Assembly (NCBI RefSeq): GCF_001713355.1
Contig: NZ_CP016448.1
Location: 3,534,001-3,598,000 of the forward strand
Direction of reading: 5' to 3'
Length of the DNA: 64,000 nucleotides
Source: Methyloversatilis sp. RAC08
Lineage (GTDB): Bacteria; Pseudomonadota; Gammaproteobacteria; Burkholderiales; Rhodocyclaceae
Within the stretch, counting starts at the first letter, position 1, and every line of letters begins with the position of its first letter. A program made the position numbers and the translations under genes. A model generated the notes under the pieces. That model searched no databases, was not told the origin of the DNA, and saw nothing but the letters and a program-made list of their open reading frames with translations. Of the stretch, positions 6,453 to 29,332 are shown piece after piece.

Positions 6453-8609
6453 TCAGCCGGTTGGCGCAGCCGGGCCCCCGGTTTCGATGGCGGGCTGCTC
6501 CAGCGTGAACTCGAATACCGCACCGACGCCTACGCTGCCGCGTGCCCGGATTTCACCGCCATGATGGCGAACGATGCGCTGCACGATGCTCAGCCCGACG
6601 CCGGAACCGGCGTATTCGCTCGCCAGGTGCAGACGGCGGAAGGGCTCGAACAGATGCCGGGCGTAAGCCATGTCGAATCCGGCGCCGTTGTCGGTTACCC
6701 GGTACCACTGACGTCCGTCCTCGACGAAGGCGTCGATGGCCACGCGCGGATCCGCCGCCTTCGCCGAGTATTTGCAGGCGTTGCCGAGCAGGTTCTGCCA
6801 CACCTGGGCCAGCATCGCTTCGTCGCCGGTGGCGCATGGCAGGTCACCGATGCGCAGCGTGGTGCGGCCGGTCTCGCCCATGTCGGTCAGCAGCGCCCAC
6901 GCGCGGGCGGCGCTGGCCGCCATGTCGATGCGTACCGGTTCGAGCGGGTGCGGCGCGGCGCCAGCGAGCCGGGTCAGCGCCTCGATGATGTCATCCATGC
7001 GACGCGCGACATTTTCGATGCGTTCGGCATTCCTCAGCACCTTGTCGAAATTGCCCGCCTGCAGATCGCCACGCAGCATGCGGGAGAAACCGCGGATGAT
7101 GCGCAGCGGCCCGCGCAGGTCATGGGAGATCGAAGCGGTCAGCGTTTGCAGCTCATCCTGGGTGCCGGCCAGTGCCACCCGTGCCTGGGCCAGCGCTTCG
7201 GCCTGCCGGTGCGCCGATTCGGTCAGCGCATCGTAGGCGGCACGCAGTGCATCGCTGTCGCGCAGCAGGTCGGTGACATCGCGGATGATGGAAAACACCT
7301 CGCGTGTGCCGTCCGACCGGAATTCCTCGGACGACACCAGACAGGCACGCATGTCGCCGTCTGCCCTGCGCAGGCGCACCGGCGTGCTGCTCACTTCGCC
7401 GTCGGTACGCATCAGTTCGCGCAGGGCGCGCAGTCCATCCGGATCGACGAGCGCCGGCAGCGCGTCGATCGGCTGGCCGACGAGCGTGTCCGCCTCGGCG
7501 CCCGCCAGCCGGCACAGTGCGTCGTTGACGTCGAGTACCCGGCCGCTGTGGTAGTCGCTGATCAGCATGGCGTCCGGGTGATGGGTGAAGGCACACGCCA
7601 GCCGGTCTTCGGCCCGCTGCAGGGCCTGTTCCGCTTCGGCTCGACGGCTGCGTTCGCGCGCGGTCTGCGCCGCTCGGCGACGCAGCCGCAGCGCCAGCCA
7701 GCCCAGTACGACGGCCGCCCCTGCGGCGAGCAGCATCAGGTCCATGCGCTGGGTGACCACGCGCGCCTCGAGCACGCCTTGATCGGCTGCCGCGCGGTGG
7801 CTGCTGAGCCACTTCATGCGCAGTGCGTCGAGCTGGCCGGAGCGTTCGAGTGACTTGAGCGCAGCATTCAACACCTCGCGCAGCGCCTCATTCTCCGGCG
7901 CCACCGCGAAGCCATAGTCCTGCAGCCGCAGCATGAAGTTGCTTGCCACCACCGCGTCGTACTGACCGCTTGCGAGCAGCTTGTCGCCATAGGCGCGCGG
8001 CATCAATGCGAACTCGGCTGCGCCGTCGCGCAGAGCCGCGAGCGCGGCCGCGTGATCGGCGACGTTCAGAAATCGGTACTGCTCGCCGGAGAAGAAATTT
8101 GCCCGCGTTTCGCGCATCGGTTCGCTGTCGGGCACGGCAATCGTGCCATGTGCCAGGTCGGCCAGAGAAACCGGTGCATCGGTGTCGCGACGGTGATAGA
8201 TGGACATGGCGGGTGTGGCATGCGCGGTGGCAAACGCCGCCCACTGTTCGCGGCTGCGCGTGCGCGACATCGCAATCAGATCCAGCCGCCCGGCCTGGAA
8301 ATCGGCTTCGATGGCTGACCAGTCGTCCAGCCGCGGGACGATCTCGAGGCCCGTTACGCGCGCCAGTTCGGCGATCAGTTCGATCTGGAAACCCTGTGGC
8401 TGACCGCTTTCATCGATGAACTCGAAGGGTCGGAAATCGCGGTCGCCACCGTAGCTCAGCGTGTCGGCCAATATCGCACTGCAAGTGCCGAAACAGAGCG
8501 TCACGACAAGCAGCAGGCGCAGTGCGAAATGGAAAAGGCCGCTGCTGCGCAGACTTGACGCCGGCAGGCAAATCTTCGTCGAATGCTTTGGGCGGAACCA
8601 GTGCGTCAT
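6453..8609 (-). CDS. transmembrane sensor histidine kinase with periplasmic solute-binding sensor domain and PAS
   Basis: A 718-residue hybrid-topology kinase. A signal/anchor segment lies at about 25-47. A periplasmic family-3 solute-binding domain (about 50-275, beginning LSYGGDRDFRPFEFID) probably detects an amino acid-like ligand. A second membrane helix spans about 288-308, a PAS domain 335-450 and a coiled segment 450-490. The dimerisation/phosphoacceptor box ISHDLRGPLRIIRGF carries the predicted phospho-His at 496. The ATPase domain shows NLLGNACKYS, DNGAGFD and GSGVGLSIV. The frame continues 103 codons upstream, but ATG 8609 precedes the signal segment. It is divergent from the GGDEF-EAL protein; no dedicated DNA-binding response regulator is adjacent. 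Confidence 0.9.
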   Translation of the reverse strand: MTHWFRPKHSTKICLPASSLRSSGLFHFALRLLLVVTLCFGTCSAILADTLSYGGDRDFRPFEFIDESGQPQGFQIELIAELARVTGLEIVPRLDDWSAIEADFQAGRLDLIAMSRTRSREQWAAFATAHATPAMSIYHRRDTDAPVSLADLAHGTIAVPDSEPMRETRANFFSGEQYRFLNVADHAAALAALRDGAAEFALMPRAYGDKLLASGQYDAVVASNFMLRLQDYGFAVAPENEALREVLNAALKSLERSGQLDALRMKWLSSHRAAADQGVLEARVVTQRMDLMLLAAGAAVVLGWLALRLRRRAAQTARERSRRAEAEQALQRAEDRLACAFTHHPDAMLISDYHSGRVLDVNDALCRLAGAEADTLVGQPIDALPALVDPDGLRALRELMRTDGEVSSTPVRLRRADGDMRACLVSSEEFRSDGTREVFSIIRDVTDLLRDSDALRAAYDALTESAHRQAEALAQARVALAGTQDELQTLTASISHDLRGPLRIIRGFSRMLRGDLQAGNFDKVLRNAERIENVARRMDDIIEALTRLAGAAPHPLEPVRIDMAASAARAWALLTDMGETGRTTLRIGDLPCATGDEAMLAQVWQNLLGNACKYSAKAADPRVAIDAFVEDGRQWYRVTDNGAGFDMAYARHLFEPFRRLHLASEYAGSGVGLSIVQRIVRHHGGEIRARGSVGVGAVFEFTLEQPAIETGGPAAPTG

Positions 8610-9205
8610 CGCTTGAATGAAGTGGGCTGCAGCGGCTGCGGACTTGTTCGTTTTGTGGCCCGGACACCCTGCAGGGCGCAAGACTACAAGATATTTACCC
8701 TGCGGCGTCGCGCGGTGCGCGTCGGTCACTGGGGTCAGCGGCAGCGATGGCCCCCAATCACACAATAATTTTAGGGTTTTTCTGCGGGCGCCTGCTGAAC
8801 TGCAGGATTGGCGCACCCGGCAGGCCGCGCGCACGACCGGGATGTGCGTGCTGGTGAAGGCGGAGCCATGGGTCATGACCGTCCGGCCGGATCCGCATGG
8901 CACGCGAATGGTATTCATGGCTCATGACGGGCGCAAAGGCTTATGCTGATGTCAGACGCCTCGTGATGTGAAACCAGAAAGCCAGTCGGTGCCCGAACAG
9001 ACCGGCCTCGCGTTCATCCGGATGGCGCCGATGCGTCATCGCCACCGGCACGACGTTGGCCGCCGGGTGTCTTTACCTTACGACGCGCTGATCAGCGCCC
9101 GCAGATGCGGCCTGGCGCAGCGGGCTGCTCAAGTGAAGCCGCCTTGCTGCCGATACTCACCCACGTCCCGATCGGCACATGAGGACATCGAGGAGACCAC
9201 ACCCA
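8610..9205. other. intergenic region between divergent signalling genes
   Basis: About 600 bases without a convincing gene. It should hold the promoters of both the leftward kinase and the rightward GGDEF-EAL gene. The stretch around 8755-8780 is the most A/T-rich part (AATCACACAATAATTTTAG) and is the best promoter candidate. The only visible initiation signal is the GAGGAGACC Shine-Dalgarno at 9190-9198 serving the next gene. I found no RNA gene, repeat or clear operator here. Confidence 0.5.
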
Positions 9206-11374
9206 ATGCAGGACACCCCCCGCGACTTGGCGGCGCGCGAGCAATCGGCCTCTCCCGCGGTCACGGTCGCACTACGCGCGCTGATCGTCGAAGACAATCC
9301 GGTCGATCTTTGCGTGCTGCTCGTCCGCCTGAGGGCCGGTGGCTACGACGTCACGTCGGTGTGCGTCGAAACACCGGGCGAGCTGCGCGATGCGCTGGTG
9401 CGAGGGGGATGGGACATTGTCATCAGCGACTACCTGCTGCCGACCTTCAATGGTCTGGACGCACTGAACATCGTCAAGCGCTTCGACCCCGATCTGCCGC
9501 TCATCATCGTGTCCGGCGGCATCGGCGAAGACATCGCGGTCGAAGCGATGCGGGCCGGCGCACAGGATTACCTGCTGAAGAAGAACCTGCAGCGCCTGCC
9601 GGCCGTCATCCACCGAGAGCTGAAGAAGGCGGCGGCGCAGCGCGAGCAGCTGGCGGCGAACGCGGTGCTGCGCGAGAGCGAACTGCGCCTGCAGAGCATT
9701 CTCGCCACGCTGGAAGACATCATCTGGTCGATCGACCTCAGAACGCAGCGACTGGTGTATCTCAACCCGGCCGCGGTCAACATCTATGGCGTACCGGCGG
9801 AGGCATTCCTCGACGGCCGCATCGACTGGCTCGACATGGTGCACCCGGACGATCGCGAGCGCATGCGACATTCGCTGAAGGAAGTGTCGAAGGTCGGCAG
9901 TCTGTCGAGCGAATACCGCATCGTGCGGCCCGATGGCGAGGTGCGCTGGATTCATGACCGGGCGCGCGTGGTCTGCAACGATTCGGGCGCGCGCCTGCGC
10001 GTCGACGGCATCGCCCGCGACGTGACAGAACACAAGTTCAGCGAAGCCAAGCTCTACCAGGCGGCGAACTTCGACGCCCTGACCGGTCTGCCCAACCGCG
10101 CCATGCTGAGCGACCGCCTCAACCGCGCGCTGGTCCGCCAGGCCGACGGGAAAACCATGCTGGCAGTGCTGTTCGTCGACATCGACCGCTTCAAGGTGAT
10201 CAACGACAGCATGGGTCACGATGCCGGCGACGAACTGCTGCGCCAGATCACCGAACGCCTGTCGCTCGCCCTGCGCGCGAGCGACACGCTGGCCCGCCTT
10301 GGCGGCGACGAATTCGTCATCGTGCTGCCCGACCTGCATCGCGTGGCCGACGCCGAAACGGTGTGCCGCAACCTGATGCGCGCCATCGAGCCGCCGGTCG
10401 AACTGCTCGGCCATCCGATCTACTGCACCGCCAGCATGGGTGTAGCCCTGTTCCCGAGGGACGGCGACGATGCGGGCACATTGCTCAAGCACGCCGACCT
10501 CGCGATGTACCGGGCGAAGAAGGAAGGGCGCAACACGTTGCGTTTCTACAATCCCGAAGAAGGGGGTGCGGCCAACAACCGGCTTGAACTGGAACGCGAA
10601 CTGCGTGCCGCGCTGGTCAATGACGAATTCGTACTGCAGTACCAGCCGAAGGTCGATCTCACATGCGACGGACGCATCGCCGGGTTCGAGGCGCTGGTGC
10701 GCTGGCGCCACCCGAGCCGCGGCCTGCTGTCGCCGCTGGAATTCATACCGCTGGCCGAAGAGACCGGCCTCATCGTGCCGATCGGCACCTGGGTACTGCG
10801 CCAGGCCTGCACACAGGCGCGCATCTGGGTGAATGAGTTCGGCCCGCACTTGCGCATGGCGGTGAACCTCTCAGCCCGCCAGTTCGCCGGCAGCGACCTG
10901 GTGGAAACCGTCACCAGCGCGCTGCGCGACAGCGGCCTCGATCCGGGCAATCTGGAAGTCGAAATCACCGAATCGCTGCTCATGCAGGATGCCGGCAAGT
11001 CGGTGCGCGTGCTGCGCCAGATCAAGGATATGGGCGTGTCGATCGCAGTCGACGACTTCGGTACCGGCTATTCCAGCCTCGCCTACCTGAAGCGCTTTCC
11101 GCTCGACGTGATCAAGATCGACCGCTCCTTCGTGCGCGATATTTCGGTCGATCAGGACGACGCTGCCATCTGCGCCTCCATCCTCGCCATGGCGCACGCG
11201 TTGCGCATGGAAGTCGTCGCCGAAGGCGTCGAAACGATGCCCCAGCTGGCCTTCCTGCAGGAGCACGGCTGTCAGGTCATGCAGGGTTTCCTGTTCAGCC
11301 GCCCGCTGCCCGCCGCCGATGCGACGGCGCTGCTCGCCAGCGGTCGGCGCCAGCGGCTCGGCGGCGGCGAGTAG
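9206..11374 (+). CDS. REC-PAS-GGDEF-EAL cyclic-di-GMP regulator
   Basis: A 722-residue cytoplasmic response regulator that should make and/or break cyclic-di-GMP. Domains in order: receiver (about 24-140; acidic pair ED at 29-30, predicted phospho-Asp 75 in VISDYLLP, conserved Lys in LLKKN); PAS/PAC (160-280); GGDEF (285-450; intact GGDEF at 366-370); EAL (460-715; intact EAL at 495-497). Both catalytic signatures look intact, so activity could be bifunctional or switched. I chose ATG 9206 because a GAGGAG site precedes it. The divergent histidine kinase is the natural candidate for phosphorylating its receiver domain. Confidence 0.95.
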
Positions 11375-25942: not shown

Positions 25943-26779
25943 TCAGGGGGCGCGATACTCGACACCGTGGCGCTTGAAGATGTCCTTCAGCTCGCCCTTT
26001 TCGGCAATGCTGTTCATCGCGGCCTGCAGCGACTGGGCCAATTTTTCATTACCTGACTTCACCGCGAGGCCGATGACCCACTGGCGGCGATTGACCAGCG
26101 GAAGCGGCACGTCGGCGATGGCGTAGCCGCTGGTGCCTGCGAGACCGGCCTCCAGTTCGCTCTGCATGGCCATGACGGCACTGACCTCGCCATTCTTCAT
26201 CGCGCTCAGTGCTTCGCTGGCCGATTTGTAATTGCCGACGTTGTTGCGGTAGACGCCCCCATCTGCGGACAGGAGCACCGTGGCAGGGTAGGTTTCCACT
26301 TCGACGCCGATGCGCTGGGTGCGGAAGGCATCGAGCGATTCGAGCTTGTCGAGCTTGTCGACGTTGCGGGCGATGGCAAACTTTTCGCGGTAGTAGGGTG
26401 CGAAGAACATGGCCTTGTCGTTACGAGCCGTGTAGGTCGCGTCGATGGGCACGTGCAGCATGACATCGGCCGGGCCATAGCCGAGCACGGTGCCGCGCCA
26501 CACCATGTTGCGCAGGTCATCGTCCATGTTTTCGTCGGCCGAGAACCACAGGATTTCCAGCTTCACGCCGAGCCGTTCAGCCAGCAGTCTGGCGACGTCG
26601 ACGTCGATGCCGCCTTTGTCCACGTCGGAGAACGGGGTGAACTCCTTGTACAGCGCAACCTTGATCTGACCGCTCTTGATCACTTCGTCGAGGTCGCGGC
26701 CTTGCGCCCATGCGCTGCCGGCGAAGCCGCCCAGCCACATGACGGCACACAGCATGAGCGTGGTTAATCTGTTCTTCAT
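25943..26779 (-). CDS. XoxJ/MxaJ-type periplasmic solute-binding protein
   Basis: A 278-residue secreted protein. The signal peptide spans residues 1-23, ending AWAQ. A family-3 solute-binding fold follows, with KVALYKEFTPFSDVDKGGIDVDVARLLAERLG and MVWRGTVLGYGPADVMLHVPIDATY. The latter segment is typical of the MxaJ/XoxJ proteins that accompany PQQ alcohol dehydrogenases and are thought to help assemble or activate them, rather than feed an ABC permease. No permease or ATPase gene is nearby, which supports this. It lies downstream of the dehydrogenase on the same strand, separated by a terminator hairpin. ATG 26779 was chosen as it precedes the signal peptide. Confidence 0.8.
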   Translation of the reverse strand: MKNRLTTLMLCAVMWLGGFAGSAWAQGRDLDEVIKSGQIKVALYKEFTPFSDVDKGGIDVDVARLLAERLGVKLEILWFSADENMDDDLRNMVWRGTVLGYGPADVMLHVPIDATYTARNDKAMFFAPYYREKFAIARNVDKLDKLESLDAFRTQRIGVEVETYPATVLLSADGGVYRNNVGNYKSASEALSAMKNGEVSAVMAMQSELEAGLAGTSGYAIADVPLPLVNRRQWVIGLAVKSGNEKLAQSLQAAMNSIAEKGELKDIFKRHGVEYRAP

Positions 26780-26958: not shown

Positions 26959-26986
26959 AAAAAACCGGCGCCAGAAGGCGCCGGTT
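26959..26986 (-). terminator. Rho-independent terminator of the PQQ dehydrogenase gene
   Basis: On the minus strand a perfect 10-bp stem, AACCGGCGCC / GGCGCCGGTT (26963-26986, four-base loop), is followed by a T-rich run. It sits about 50 bases after the dehydrogenase stop. A second small inverted repeat with CGCCCC/GGGGCG arms lies between them (about 26992-27010). The hairpin may only attenuate, since the XoxJ-like gene lies downstream in the same direction. Confidence 0.8.
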
Positions 26987-27036
26987 ACGGTCGCCCCAAT
27001 AACGGGGCGCAAGGAGGAGTCTTCAGATCTTCTTGA

Positions 27037-28794
27037 TCAATCTTTCAGCAGCTTGAACACCCACATCGAGCCGCCCTGGTTCAGGTAGGAAACCTTCTTG
27101 GCGACGTCGCCGCCCCACAGCGGGACTGCGCCGCCCCAACCGGCCGTCACGGCGATGTACTGTTCGCCGTCCTGATCCCAGGTGATCGGGGGGGCCACGA
27201 TGCCGGTGCCGACCTGGAAGGACCACACTTCCTTGCCGGTCTTGGCATCCGCTGCCTTCAGGTAGCCCTCGGGCGTGCCCCAGAACACGAGGCCGCCGCG
27301 GGTCACCATCGCGCCACCCCACAGCGGGGCGTTGTTGCGGACTTCCCATACGATCTTGCCGGTCTTCGGATCGACGGCACGCAGCGCGCCGATGTAGTCG
27401 CCGCCGATCTCCTTGGCGTCCAGCGTCTTGATCGTGAAGCCGGCACCCAGGTAGGCCGCACCCTTCTTGTAGGTGATCGGCTCGTTCCAGATTTCCATGC
27501 CCCACTCATTGGACGGCACGTAGAACAGACCGGTATCCGGGCTGTAGGCCATCGGCATCTGGTTCTTGCCGCCCAGGAAGGAAGGTGTGGCGAACACGAC
27601 ACTGCCCTTCTTGCCGTCAGCGCCCGCGCTCGGGTCGCCCGGGCGGTTCGCCGGGTCATAGATCGGGCGACCGTTTTCGTCCAGACCCTTGGCCCAATTC
27701 AGGGCCTTGACGAACGGGAAGCCGCGCTCGAACTTGCCGGTGTTGGCGTCCAGCACGTAGAAGAACCCGTTGCGGTCGGCCTTGCCGCCCATGCGCTTGC
27801 CGTTCATGTCGAAGGTGACGAATTCATTCACACCGTCGTAGTCCCAGCCGTCGTTCGGTGTGCTCTGGAAGTGCCACTTTATCTCGCCGGTCTTGACGTC
27901 GATCGCGACGGTGGAGCATGAATACAGGTTGTCGCCCGGGCGCAGGTGGCTGTTCCACGGCGCAGGATTGCCGGTGCCGAAGTAGGCGAGGCCGGTCTTC
28001 GCGTCATAGGTGCCGCCCAGCCACGTCGCAGCGCCGCCGACCTTCCACAGGTCGCCCGGCCACGTGGCATTGGTCGTGCCGCTGATGCCGGCTTCGGTCT
28101 TGTTGCCGTCGGCGTCGTACCTGTAGCCCATGTGACCTTCGATGGTCGGGCGCATCCAGACCATCTTGCCGGTCTTCGGGTCACGTGCCTCGACGCGGCC
28201 GATGATGCCGAACTCGCCACCGGACACACCGGTCAGCAGCAGACCGCCGGCGATGATGGGCGCTGCCGACGACGAATAGCCGGCCTGGTAGTCGTCGATC
28301 TTTTCTTTCCACACGACCTTGCCGGTGGCCTGATCCAGCGCGATGAGCTGGGCGTCGAGCGTGGCGTAGATGATGAGGTTGTCAAAGGCCGCAGCACCGC
28401 GGTTGATCACGTCGCAGCAGGGCATGATGCCTTCAGGCAGACGGTGTTCGTAGGTCCACAGGCGCTTGCCGGTCTTGGCATCGAGCGCGAACACGCGGGA
28501 GTACGAGGCGGTGACGAACATCTTGCCGTCGATGATGAGCGGCTGCGCTTCCTGACCGCGCTGCTTTTCGCCGCCATACGAATACGACCAGGCGGGCACC
28601 AGACGCTTCACATTCTTCGGAGTGATCTGCTTGAGCGGGCTGAAACGCTGACCCTCGGTTCCCATGCCCCACGAAAGAACGTTACCTGTGGTTTTGGCGT
28701 CATTCACGATGTCGGCGTCCGTCACACCGGCATACGCGATGGAGCTGTGCGCGCAGGCGGTGAGGACGAGCGCTGCAAGAGCAGTTCTTTTCAT
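27037..28794 (-). CDS. PQQ-dependent alcohol (methanol/ethanol family) dehydrogenase, predicted lanthanide type
   Basis: Periplasmic quinoprotein of 585 residues with a signal peptide (1-22) and eight-bladed propeller WxxW/YDAKTGK repeats. The adjacent cysteine pair (126-127, [10 protein letters not shown]), metal-ligand Glu in SGGEFG (194) and Asn in GTGNPAPWN (276) are present. The catalytic Asp 318 sits in GWDYDGVNE, and Asp 320 two residues later is the extra ligand that marks lanthanide-dependent enzymes. Overall wording ([41 protein letters not shown]-like) is closer to ExaA/PedH/MDH2-type alcohol dehydrogenases than to XoxF. Substrate, methanol or longer alcohols, is not decided by sequence. 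No cytochrome gene is adjacent. Start ATG 28794 has a GGAG site. Confidence 0.9.
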
Positions 28795-29332
28795 GGATGG
28801 TCTCCTCTGATTTGGATCAGTCGTCTGACTGTCGGATTTTTCGTCGCAACGAGCGACGCCCAAGTGTTGCAAAACGCATGCCATTTATCGGGGTTGCACC
28901 AAAATTCCGGCTCGGGATCGCCAGGCGGGCGGCTGTTCCGGCAGGCATGGCAAAGCCCGGGAGAAGGGATGTCTTCCCTGAGCCGCGCGGACAAAGGCCC
29001 TGCGGTGGGTAGGTCTTCTGGCGGAGTGCGGATGCGGCGTGGATAACGGAACGAGACGGGCGGTCGCGTTCGCGCCGGACAACTTCCGGTGACGGTTGCA
29101 CAAGCGGCTGACCCGTCCGGATTTCAACCGATTCATGCAAATCGTTCGTACAGATATCGAACGTCCGCCAGAGGGGTTGTCCCGGCGAGGGCAGGGTGAC
29201 GCCCCGATTCATCGGGGATTTCTTCACCGCTGCCACCGGCGCATCAGCACGTTCTGGGCATGCGCGGCGCGAACGCAATCCCGACGAAGCATTCGTCGAA
29301 TGCGCTCTTCGCGTTCGTGTACTCGTTGGTTT
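28795..29332. other. intergenic region upstream of the PQQ dehydrogenase
   Basis: About 540 bases without a gene I can support. It must contain the dehydrogenase promoter near its left end. A perfect inverted repeat, CCCCGAT then ATCGGGG with a two-base loop, lies at 29202-29217 and is followed by ATTTCTTC. A smaller one, GCATTCG/GAATGC, is near 29289-29303. Neither can be assigned a regulator from sequence alone. Confidence 0.4.

Follow-up and report, generated by a model that had tools for sequence, protein, structure and literature searches.

A probable genus-level PedH paralogue beside a PedG-like binding protein in Methyloversatilis

The window, a stretch of 64,000 nucleotides from the genome of the methanol-using bacterium Methyloversatilis sp. 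RAC08, contains a gene that probably encodes a genus-level paralogue of the lanthanide-dependent PQQ alcohol dehydrogenases of the PedH/ExaF type. This protein is here called PedH1, and its paralogue elsewhere in the genome PedH2. The basis directly at hand comprises the sequence, the tree, the metal-site residues, the gene order, a kept hairpin and sigma-54-like sites. PedH1 would be exported to the periplasm, would bind PQQ and a lanthanide through E194, N276, D318 and D320, and would oxidise short alcohols in the methanol/ethanol range, perhaps together with their aldehydes. The acceptor of its electrons would be a cytochrome c550 of the PedF type, the gene for which lies in the ped cluster elsewhere in the genome, and the neighbouring PedG-type, XoxJ-like helper may assist in cofactor loading or activation. 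Since it appears to have a sigma-54-type promoter and a terminator of its own, PedH1 would be a separate unit under control like that of PedH2 and PedF, with the helper gene transcribed apart from it. The PedG gene usual behind pedF seems to be missing in this lineage, and the PedH1-linked copy may stand in for it. The features of the locus, in window coordinates, are the following.

25943-26779, minus strand: PedG-like periplasmic solute-binding protein, type 3, 278 aa, with the broad fold of MxaJ/XoxJ
26963-26986, minus strand: terminator-like hairpin (10-pair stem and T run) between PedH1 and the binding-protein gene
27037-28794, minus strand: PedH1, PQQ-dependent alcohol dehydrogenase, 585 aa, with Asp318/Asp320 and a signal peptide recognised by eye
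28869-28883, minus strand: sigma-54 (-24/-12)-like site TGGCATGCGTTTTGC, a putative promoter about 75-89 bases before the PedH1 ATG
29143-29163, strand not assigned: weak candidate upstream activator site, the inverted repeat CGTTCG-N9-CGAACG

The PedH1 enzyme and its metal site

The sequence-only reading had put an ExaA/PedH-type enzyme at 27037-28794, and both the position and the family hold. The open frame of 585 aa is on the minus strand; the plus strand has a stop in the given frame. The protein scores 740 bits against TIGR03075, for which the cut-off is 480. It is 62% identical to PedH, 56% to ExaA, 42 and 38% to two XoxF proteins and 35% to MxaF. Its best solved relatives are 6zcv/6zcw and ExaA (1flg); the former are labelled quinoprotein ethanol dehydrogenase in the database and are taken here to be PedH of Pseudomonas putida.

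The lanthanide-type pattern of Asp318 followed by Asp320, which had also been pointed out from the sequence, is borne out by alignment. The motif W317-D318-Y319-D320, numbered from the ATG at 28794, places the two aspartates on D323/D325 of PedH, D299/D301 of SolV XoxF, D299/A301 of MxaF and D316/S318 of ExaA. E194 and N276 align with the remaining metal ligands of the references, and positions of these four types are presumed to be the metal ligands. The vicinal cysteines C126-C127 align to PedH as well. An aspartate at +2 is present in all 98 PedH-type rows of the tree, 97 of them found by pattern and one (L027, WDFD) by eye.

Tree placement and duplication of PedH

Two trees were calculated, a quick one of 112 rows, from which proteins shorter than 500 aa and identical ones were left out, and a careful one of 44 rows; long branches were flagged in both. 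The XoxF/MxaF side was represented by XoxF5, SolV XoxF, MxaF and the two XoxF proteins of the same genome, with XoxF1, 3 and 4, MDH2 and PedE left out. PedH1 is separated from these references at 100/100 in the careful tree, and the same split is found in the quick tree.

The PedH1 proteins of 11 genomes form one clade, with an SH-aLRT of 99 in the quick tree and 100/99 in the careful tree. The PedH2 proteins of 13 genomes stand beside it as a second group, the support for which falls from an SH-aLRT of 94 in the quick tree to 90/71 in the careful tree. PedH1 and PedH2 are thus two within-genus groups, and the duplication is therefore placed by their sequences inside Methyloversatilis. The weaker support for PedH2 and the scoring of sigma-54-like sites on equal terms, described below, slightly temper the case. 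In the quick tree the clade that includes PedH1 joins P. putida PedH at an SH-aLRT of 86; the careful tree has no resolved branching among P. putida PedH, ExaA and the betaproteobacterial clade.

The binding protein beside PedH1

The gene product at 25943-26779 had been described as an MxaJ/XoxJ-type binding protein. It is a type-3 solute-binding protein, with a match to PF00497, and the resemblance is real in this broad sense. Judged by the curated models, however, it would be only distantly XoxJ-like, because its scores of 48.1 bits on TIGR03871 and 20.7 bits on TIGR03870 fall short of the cut-offs of 212 and 258, respectively, whereas the genome's own XoxJ scores 277.7 bits on TIGR03871. 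For the protein beside PedH1, TIGR01096, a general model, is level with TIGR03871 at 48.8 bits.

The predicted structure gives a similar picture. The AlphaFold model has a mean pLDDT of 83.8, and residues 83-101, which include the conserved loop, are poorly modelled. It superimposes on XoxJ (6onp) with a Z score of 19.1 and an rmsd of 2.8 Å over 203 residues, the lowest rmsd among the matches listed, and on MxaJ (5sv6) with a Z score of 19.1 and 2.9 Å over 218 residues. Amino-acid receptors tie with or exceed both, with Z scores up to 21.4, and XoxJ is not among the best 50 Foldseek matches. As far as the model goes, the fold does not point to XoxJ in particular.

The protein is 45-48% identical to three pedF-linked copies from the genus and 38-52% to eight from outside it, and its signature loop has TV in place of HY. 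Ratios of dN/dS were calculated for seven pairs in all, with a second method giving values for three of the seven; they are 0.04-0.18 in three PedH1 pairs and 0.04-0.26 in three binding-protein pairs. Among plasmid records, none of the 576 with PedH1 homologues reaches 80% identity, and none of the 117 with binding-protein homologues reaches 60%.

The place of the binding protein outside the genus

Relatives of the protein have a characteristic position in other bacteria. Among 69 PedH loci that are neither labelled nor placed as Methyloversatilis, pedF lay within 15 of the fetched stretches, and a binding protein directly follows pedF in all ten loci with more than 600 bases behind pedF. A whole-genome search covered 28 genomes, taken from 29 of the 69 loci with L055 left out; no binding protein had been seen in the fetched stretch of any of these 29. 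One binding-protein match each at E up to 1e-30 was found in 27 of the 28, in every case directly behind pedF and with a sigma-54 regulator on the other side of pedF, so that other members of the PedH clade are indeed accompanied by such a gene. The remaining genome, a Curvibacter MAG, has PedH and gave no binding-protein match. The orders annotated on plasmids are pedF-SBP-PedH on pME152 of M. extorquens, pedF-SBP-SoxYZ-SoxH-PedH in Azospirillum thermophilum, and pedF-SBP in Aquabacterium and Variovorax.

Passages of PMC12997753 describe PedG as a structural relative of XoxJ and MxaJ that has no known transporter, cite proposals that proteins of this type help to insert PQQ and metal, and place pedG in P. 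putida and PedG- and PedF-like genes on the flanks of exaF in M. extorquens. According to a part of PMC7391723, xoxF and exaF clusters often contain xoxJ or exaJ. The binding protein of the window would thus probably be the usual PedH helper in an unusual place.

Gene order inside Methyloversatilis

Within the genus the binding protein adjoins PedH1 in six of 13 genomes (G000, G003, G007, G009, G012 and the divergent G008). The pairing is not chance, because it recurs in this many genomes, the divergent one included, at dN/dS values of 0.04-0.26 for the pairs measured. In six others (G001, G002, G004, G005, G006 and G011) a form about 47% identical to the PedH1-linked one adjoins PedF. The six genomes with the PedH1-linked protein have no copy at pedF, the clusters having been read for four of them. 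G010 (L126; 93% complete) has PedH2 and PedF, and neither a PedG-like gene nor PedH1 was found in it. As no such gene was found in G010 or in the Curvibacter MAG, the helper may be dispensable. Nor is the pairing obligatory, since PedH1 has no binding-protein gene next to it in five of its 11 genomes.

PedH1 occurs in three neighbourhoods: near rhlE and with the binding protein (six genomes), in a second setting in G001, G004, G005 and G011, and in a third in G006. On the 3.94 Mb contig of the window genome, pedF lies at 0.67 Mb and the PedH1-linked binding-protein gene at 3.56 Mb. The complementary distribution (six genomes with the gene at PedH1 only, six at pedF only, one with neither) was set aside as strong evidence, about two events being possible on the PedH2 tree. 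Relocation in a single event was likewise dropped, as the Methyloversatilis copies at PedH1 and those at pedF do not come together in the binding-protein tree, from which cut, identical and long-branched copies were left out. A single clade of the two is not rejected either (p-AU 0.32), and a moved copy and an older paralogue therefore cannot be told apart.

A further related binding protein, 40-44% identical, is encoded elsewhere in seven of the 13 genomes. In the four loci that were read (L128 14583-15428, L129 4977-5822, L130 7151-8002 and L131 5952-6782), where the identity is about 41-44%, its gene is adjoined by two regulatory genes and by a gene presumed to be glpQ, apart from PedH and pedF. 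The window genome has no match to this glpQ-linked protein.

It is unlikely that the protein beside PedH1 is an ordinary amino-acid-type solute receptor whose position there is incidental. The tie between TIGR01096 and TIGR03871, the terminator-like hairpin between the two genes, the five other genus genomes that have PedH1 without a binding protein and the four loci in which a related protein stands apart from any PedH or pedF would all agree with such a receptor. However, in each of the 27 genomes outside the genus in which a relative was located, its gene comes immediately after pedF, the binding protein adjoins PedH1 in six genomes including G008, and these same six have none at pedF. Furthermore, its gene is flanked by PedH1 and a cupin gene, with no importer permease or ATPase gene as an immediate neighbour.

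It is conceivable, although doubtful, that in one Methyloversatilis lineage the cofactor-loading helper of PedH has taken up a new site and a new specialisation. The pedF-linked PedG would then have been lost, and the divergent PedH1-linked PedG would serve PedH1 and also, in trans, PedH2, uncoupled from the transcription of pedF.

Transcription signals around PedH1

Sigma-54-like sites were sought in the 250 bases upstream of genes with a -24/-12 consensus presumed to be the standard one, and scored out of ten matches on equal terms for all genes. PedH1 has a site of at least 9 in ten of 11 genomes, the eleventh scoring 8, and thus keeps a site in all 11 genomes and in all three gene neighbourhoods. 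PedH2 has one of at least 9 in 12 of 12, and PedF in nine of 12, the rest scoring 8. The frequency is lower for SoxYZ (6/12 at 9 or more, 9/12 at 8 or more) and ExaA (1/10 and 4/10), and other genes reach the two thresholds in three and 21 of 206 cases, respectively. No such site precedes the ferredoxin-like gene (0/11) or the binding-protein genes (0/14). The genomes are related and not independent, and the counts therefore overstate the evidence. Neither sigma-54 control of PQQ dehydrogenases nor PedH1 of Methyloversatilis appears in the titles and abstract openings of the literature searched, which was chiefly open literature. A sigma-70 promoter scan found no site (0.6 expected).

All six genomes that have PedH1 and the binding protein side by side retain the stem of the hairpin at 26963-26986, and G008 shows a paired change within it. 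In the second neighbourhood, four of four loci have a similar hairpin behind PedH1; none was found in G006. As the hairpin separates PedH1 from the binding-protein gene, the two do not form a simple operon. The number of terminator-like sites was discarded as evidence: six were found in 25.4-29.5 kb, compared to 4.0 ± 2.1 in shuffled sequences, which is not above chance. What counts is the conservation of this one hairpin.

The terminator-like hairpin is preceded by a CTCCTCCTTGCGCCCC (CTCCTCC) stretch with a first hairpin. This arrangement (26963-27019, minus strand) is kept in all six genomes with the pair; the stretch looks like an anti-Shine-Dalgarno element, and the genome contains one exact 16-base copy of it. 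A search of 24.5-30 kb against Rfam gave no match with E up to 0.1.

Upstream activator elements were also considered. Several loci share elements of the GTTCGAT type and CCGGAC elements upstream of PedH1, yet these are not specific genome-wide (the 11-base motif occurs at 16 places, the 16-base motif once exactly and 23 times with one mismatch) and were rejected. The inverted repeat at 29143-29163 has five exact copies in the genome; it is therefore not specific and serves as a lead only.

These signals bear on whether PedH1 is a superfluous duplicate with little expression that is being lost, with PedH2 and ExaA doing the work. PedH1 is 84% identical to PedH2 of the same genome, and G002 and G010 are without PedH1, as might be expected of a dispensable duplicate. 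Such a fate is nevertheless quite improbable, given the dN/dS of 0.04-0.18 in the PedH1 pairs measured, the promoter-like site kept in three neighbourhoods and the terminator-like hairpin kept in two.

The rest of the system in the genome

No CXXCH motif is present in any of the genes called by a simple gene caller over about 19-37 kb of the window, in keeping with the earlier remark that a cytochrome c gene is not adjacent. The electron acceptor, which the sequence-only reading had left unnamed, has a good candidate elsewhere: the genome has a gene for the cytochrome c550 PedF, which scores 205 bits against a cut-off of 122, and transfer from PedH1 to this protein would be expected.

The ped cluster (L119, 670-689 kb) contains PedF, a sigma-54-type regulator, PedH2, a SoxH-related hydrolase, a SoxYZ-like carrier and an ExaA-type enzyme, together with a pentapeptide protein and a second cytochrome (93 bits, under the PedF cut-off). 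No PedG-like gene lies beside pedF in this genome. The regulator, presumably 'AcoR-like', has no named model over its cut-off among the 25 matches listed. PqqE is above the cut-off in all 13 genus genomes.

A second locus, L122, has two XoxF proteins close to XoxF5, a cytochrome and a XoxJ; the two closely related XoxF5-like genes are adjacent and in tandem (7305-11331). A further PQQ dehydrogenase of 581 aa, with the motif WDYDGNN and with its own binding protein and cytochrome, is encoded at L120 (13371-16391) and sits at the end of a long branch, apart from both PedH and XoxF.

The proposal that the locus is an intermediate arrangement between the PedH and XoxF systems, with an electron acceptor not known, grew out of a PedH-type enzyme adjoining a XoxJ-like protein with no cytochrome gene alongside, but it is very hard to sustain: PedH1 lies apart from the XoxF/MxaF references at 100/100, PedH with PedG/ExaJ is a known module, the genome encodes PedF, and the helper is far from XoxJ (48 of 212 bits, as against 278 for the genome's XoxJ).

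Comparison with known systems and naming

The combination of PedH and an MxaJ/XoxJ-like binding protein has precedents in pedFGH and exaFJG. What is mildly unusual here is the genus-level duplication of PedH, the sigma-54-like site of the copy itself and the PedG-like gene beside PedH1 in six of 13 genomes.

The nearest comparison is with P. putida KT2440, in which passages of PMC12997753 name PedH as PP_2679, PedG as PP_2676 and PedF as PP_2675. PedH1 shares 62% identity and the same metal-site residues with this PedH, and both genomes encode a PedF cytochrome along with a binding protein of the PedG type. In the window genome, however, the PedG-like gene adjoins the duplicate PedH and not pedF, and sigma-54-like sites are present. 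The ExaF system of Methylorubrum extorquens, with ExaJ and ExaG, likewise combines a PedH-type enzyme, a binding protein and a PedF-type cytochrome; the M. extorquens enzyme that is 64% identical to PedH1 is that of plasmid pME152 and not the chromosomal ExaF of AM1. The window locus differs from that of ExaF in having no adjacent cytochrome gene and in the terminator-like hairpin between the enzyme and the binding protein. The XoxF5/XoxJ system at L122 of the same genome has the lanthanide aspartate and a binding-protein partner of the same broad fold, but PedH1 is 38% identical to XoxF5 (6oc5) and belongs to a separate clade, and XoxJ passes the TIGR03871 cut-off, which the PedH1-linked protein does not.

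In passages of PMC5023235 on M. universalis FAM5, Ald, XoxJ3, XoxG3, XoxF3 and Mdh2 are given as METUNv1_590040, 42, 43, 46 and 49. The gene order of METUNv1_590040-51, so far as it can be taken from that source, matches the ped cluster (L119; also L044 and L123), with AFOR, a binding protein, PedF, PedH2 and ExaA. By gene order alone, 'XoxF3' appears to be PedH2, 'XoxG3' PedF and 'XoxJ3' PedG, and Mdh2 would be the ExaA-type enzyme with Ser at the second metal position. The label Mdh2J given there to gene 50 was rejected as a misfit, a pentapeptide protein standing at that place in the loci read. The XoxF3 system of FAM5 would thus correspond to PedH2, the other paralogue, and PedH1 was not seen in the passages of PMC5023235 on FAM5. 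PMC13300288, met in a search for work on MxaJ and assembly, has no bearing on the question.

Implications

According to passages of PMC12997753, the role of the PedG/XoxJ/MxaJ proteins is still unsettled. In the genomes compared here the helper is tied to pedF, tied to the duplicated pedH or, in one genome, not found, so that its role is testable by comparing natural strains. From the gene order, the protein published as 'XoxF3' in M. universalis FAM5 would in fact be a PedH. If the divergent PedH1-linked PedG does serve both dehydrogenases, natural comparisons within Methyloversatilis could show whether PedG goes with the dehydrogenase or with the cytochrome.
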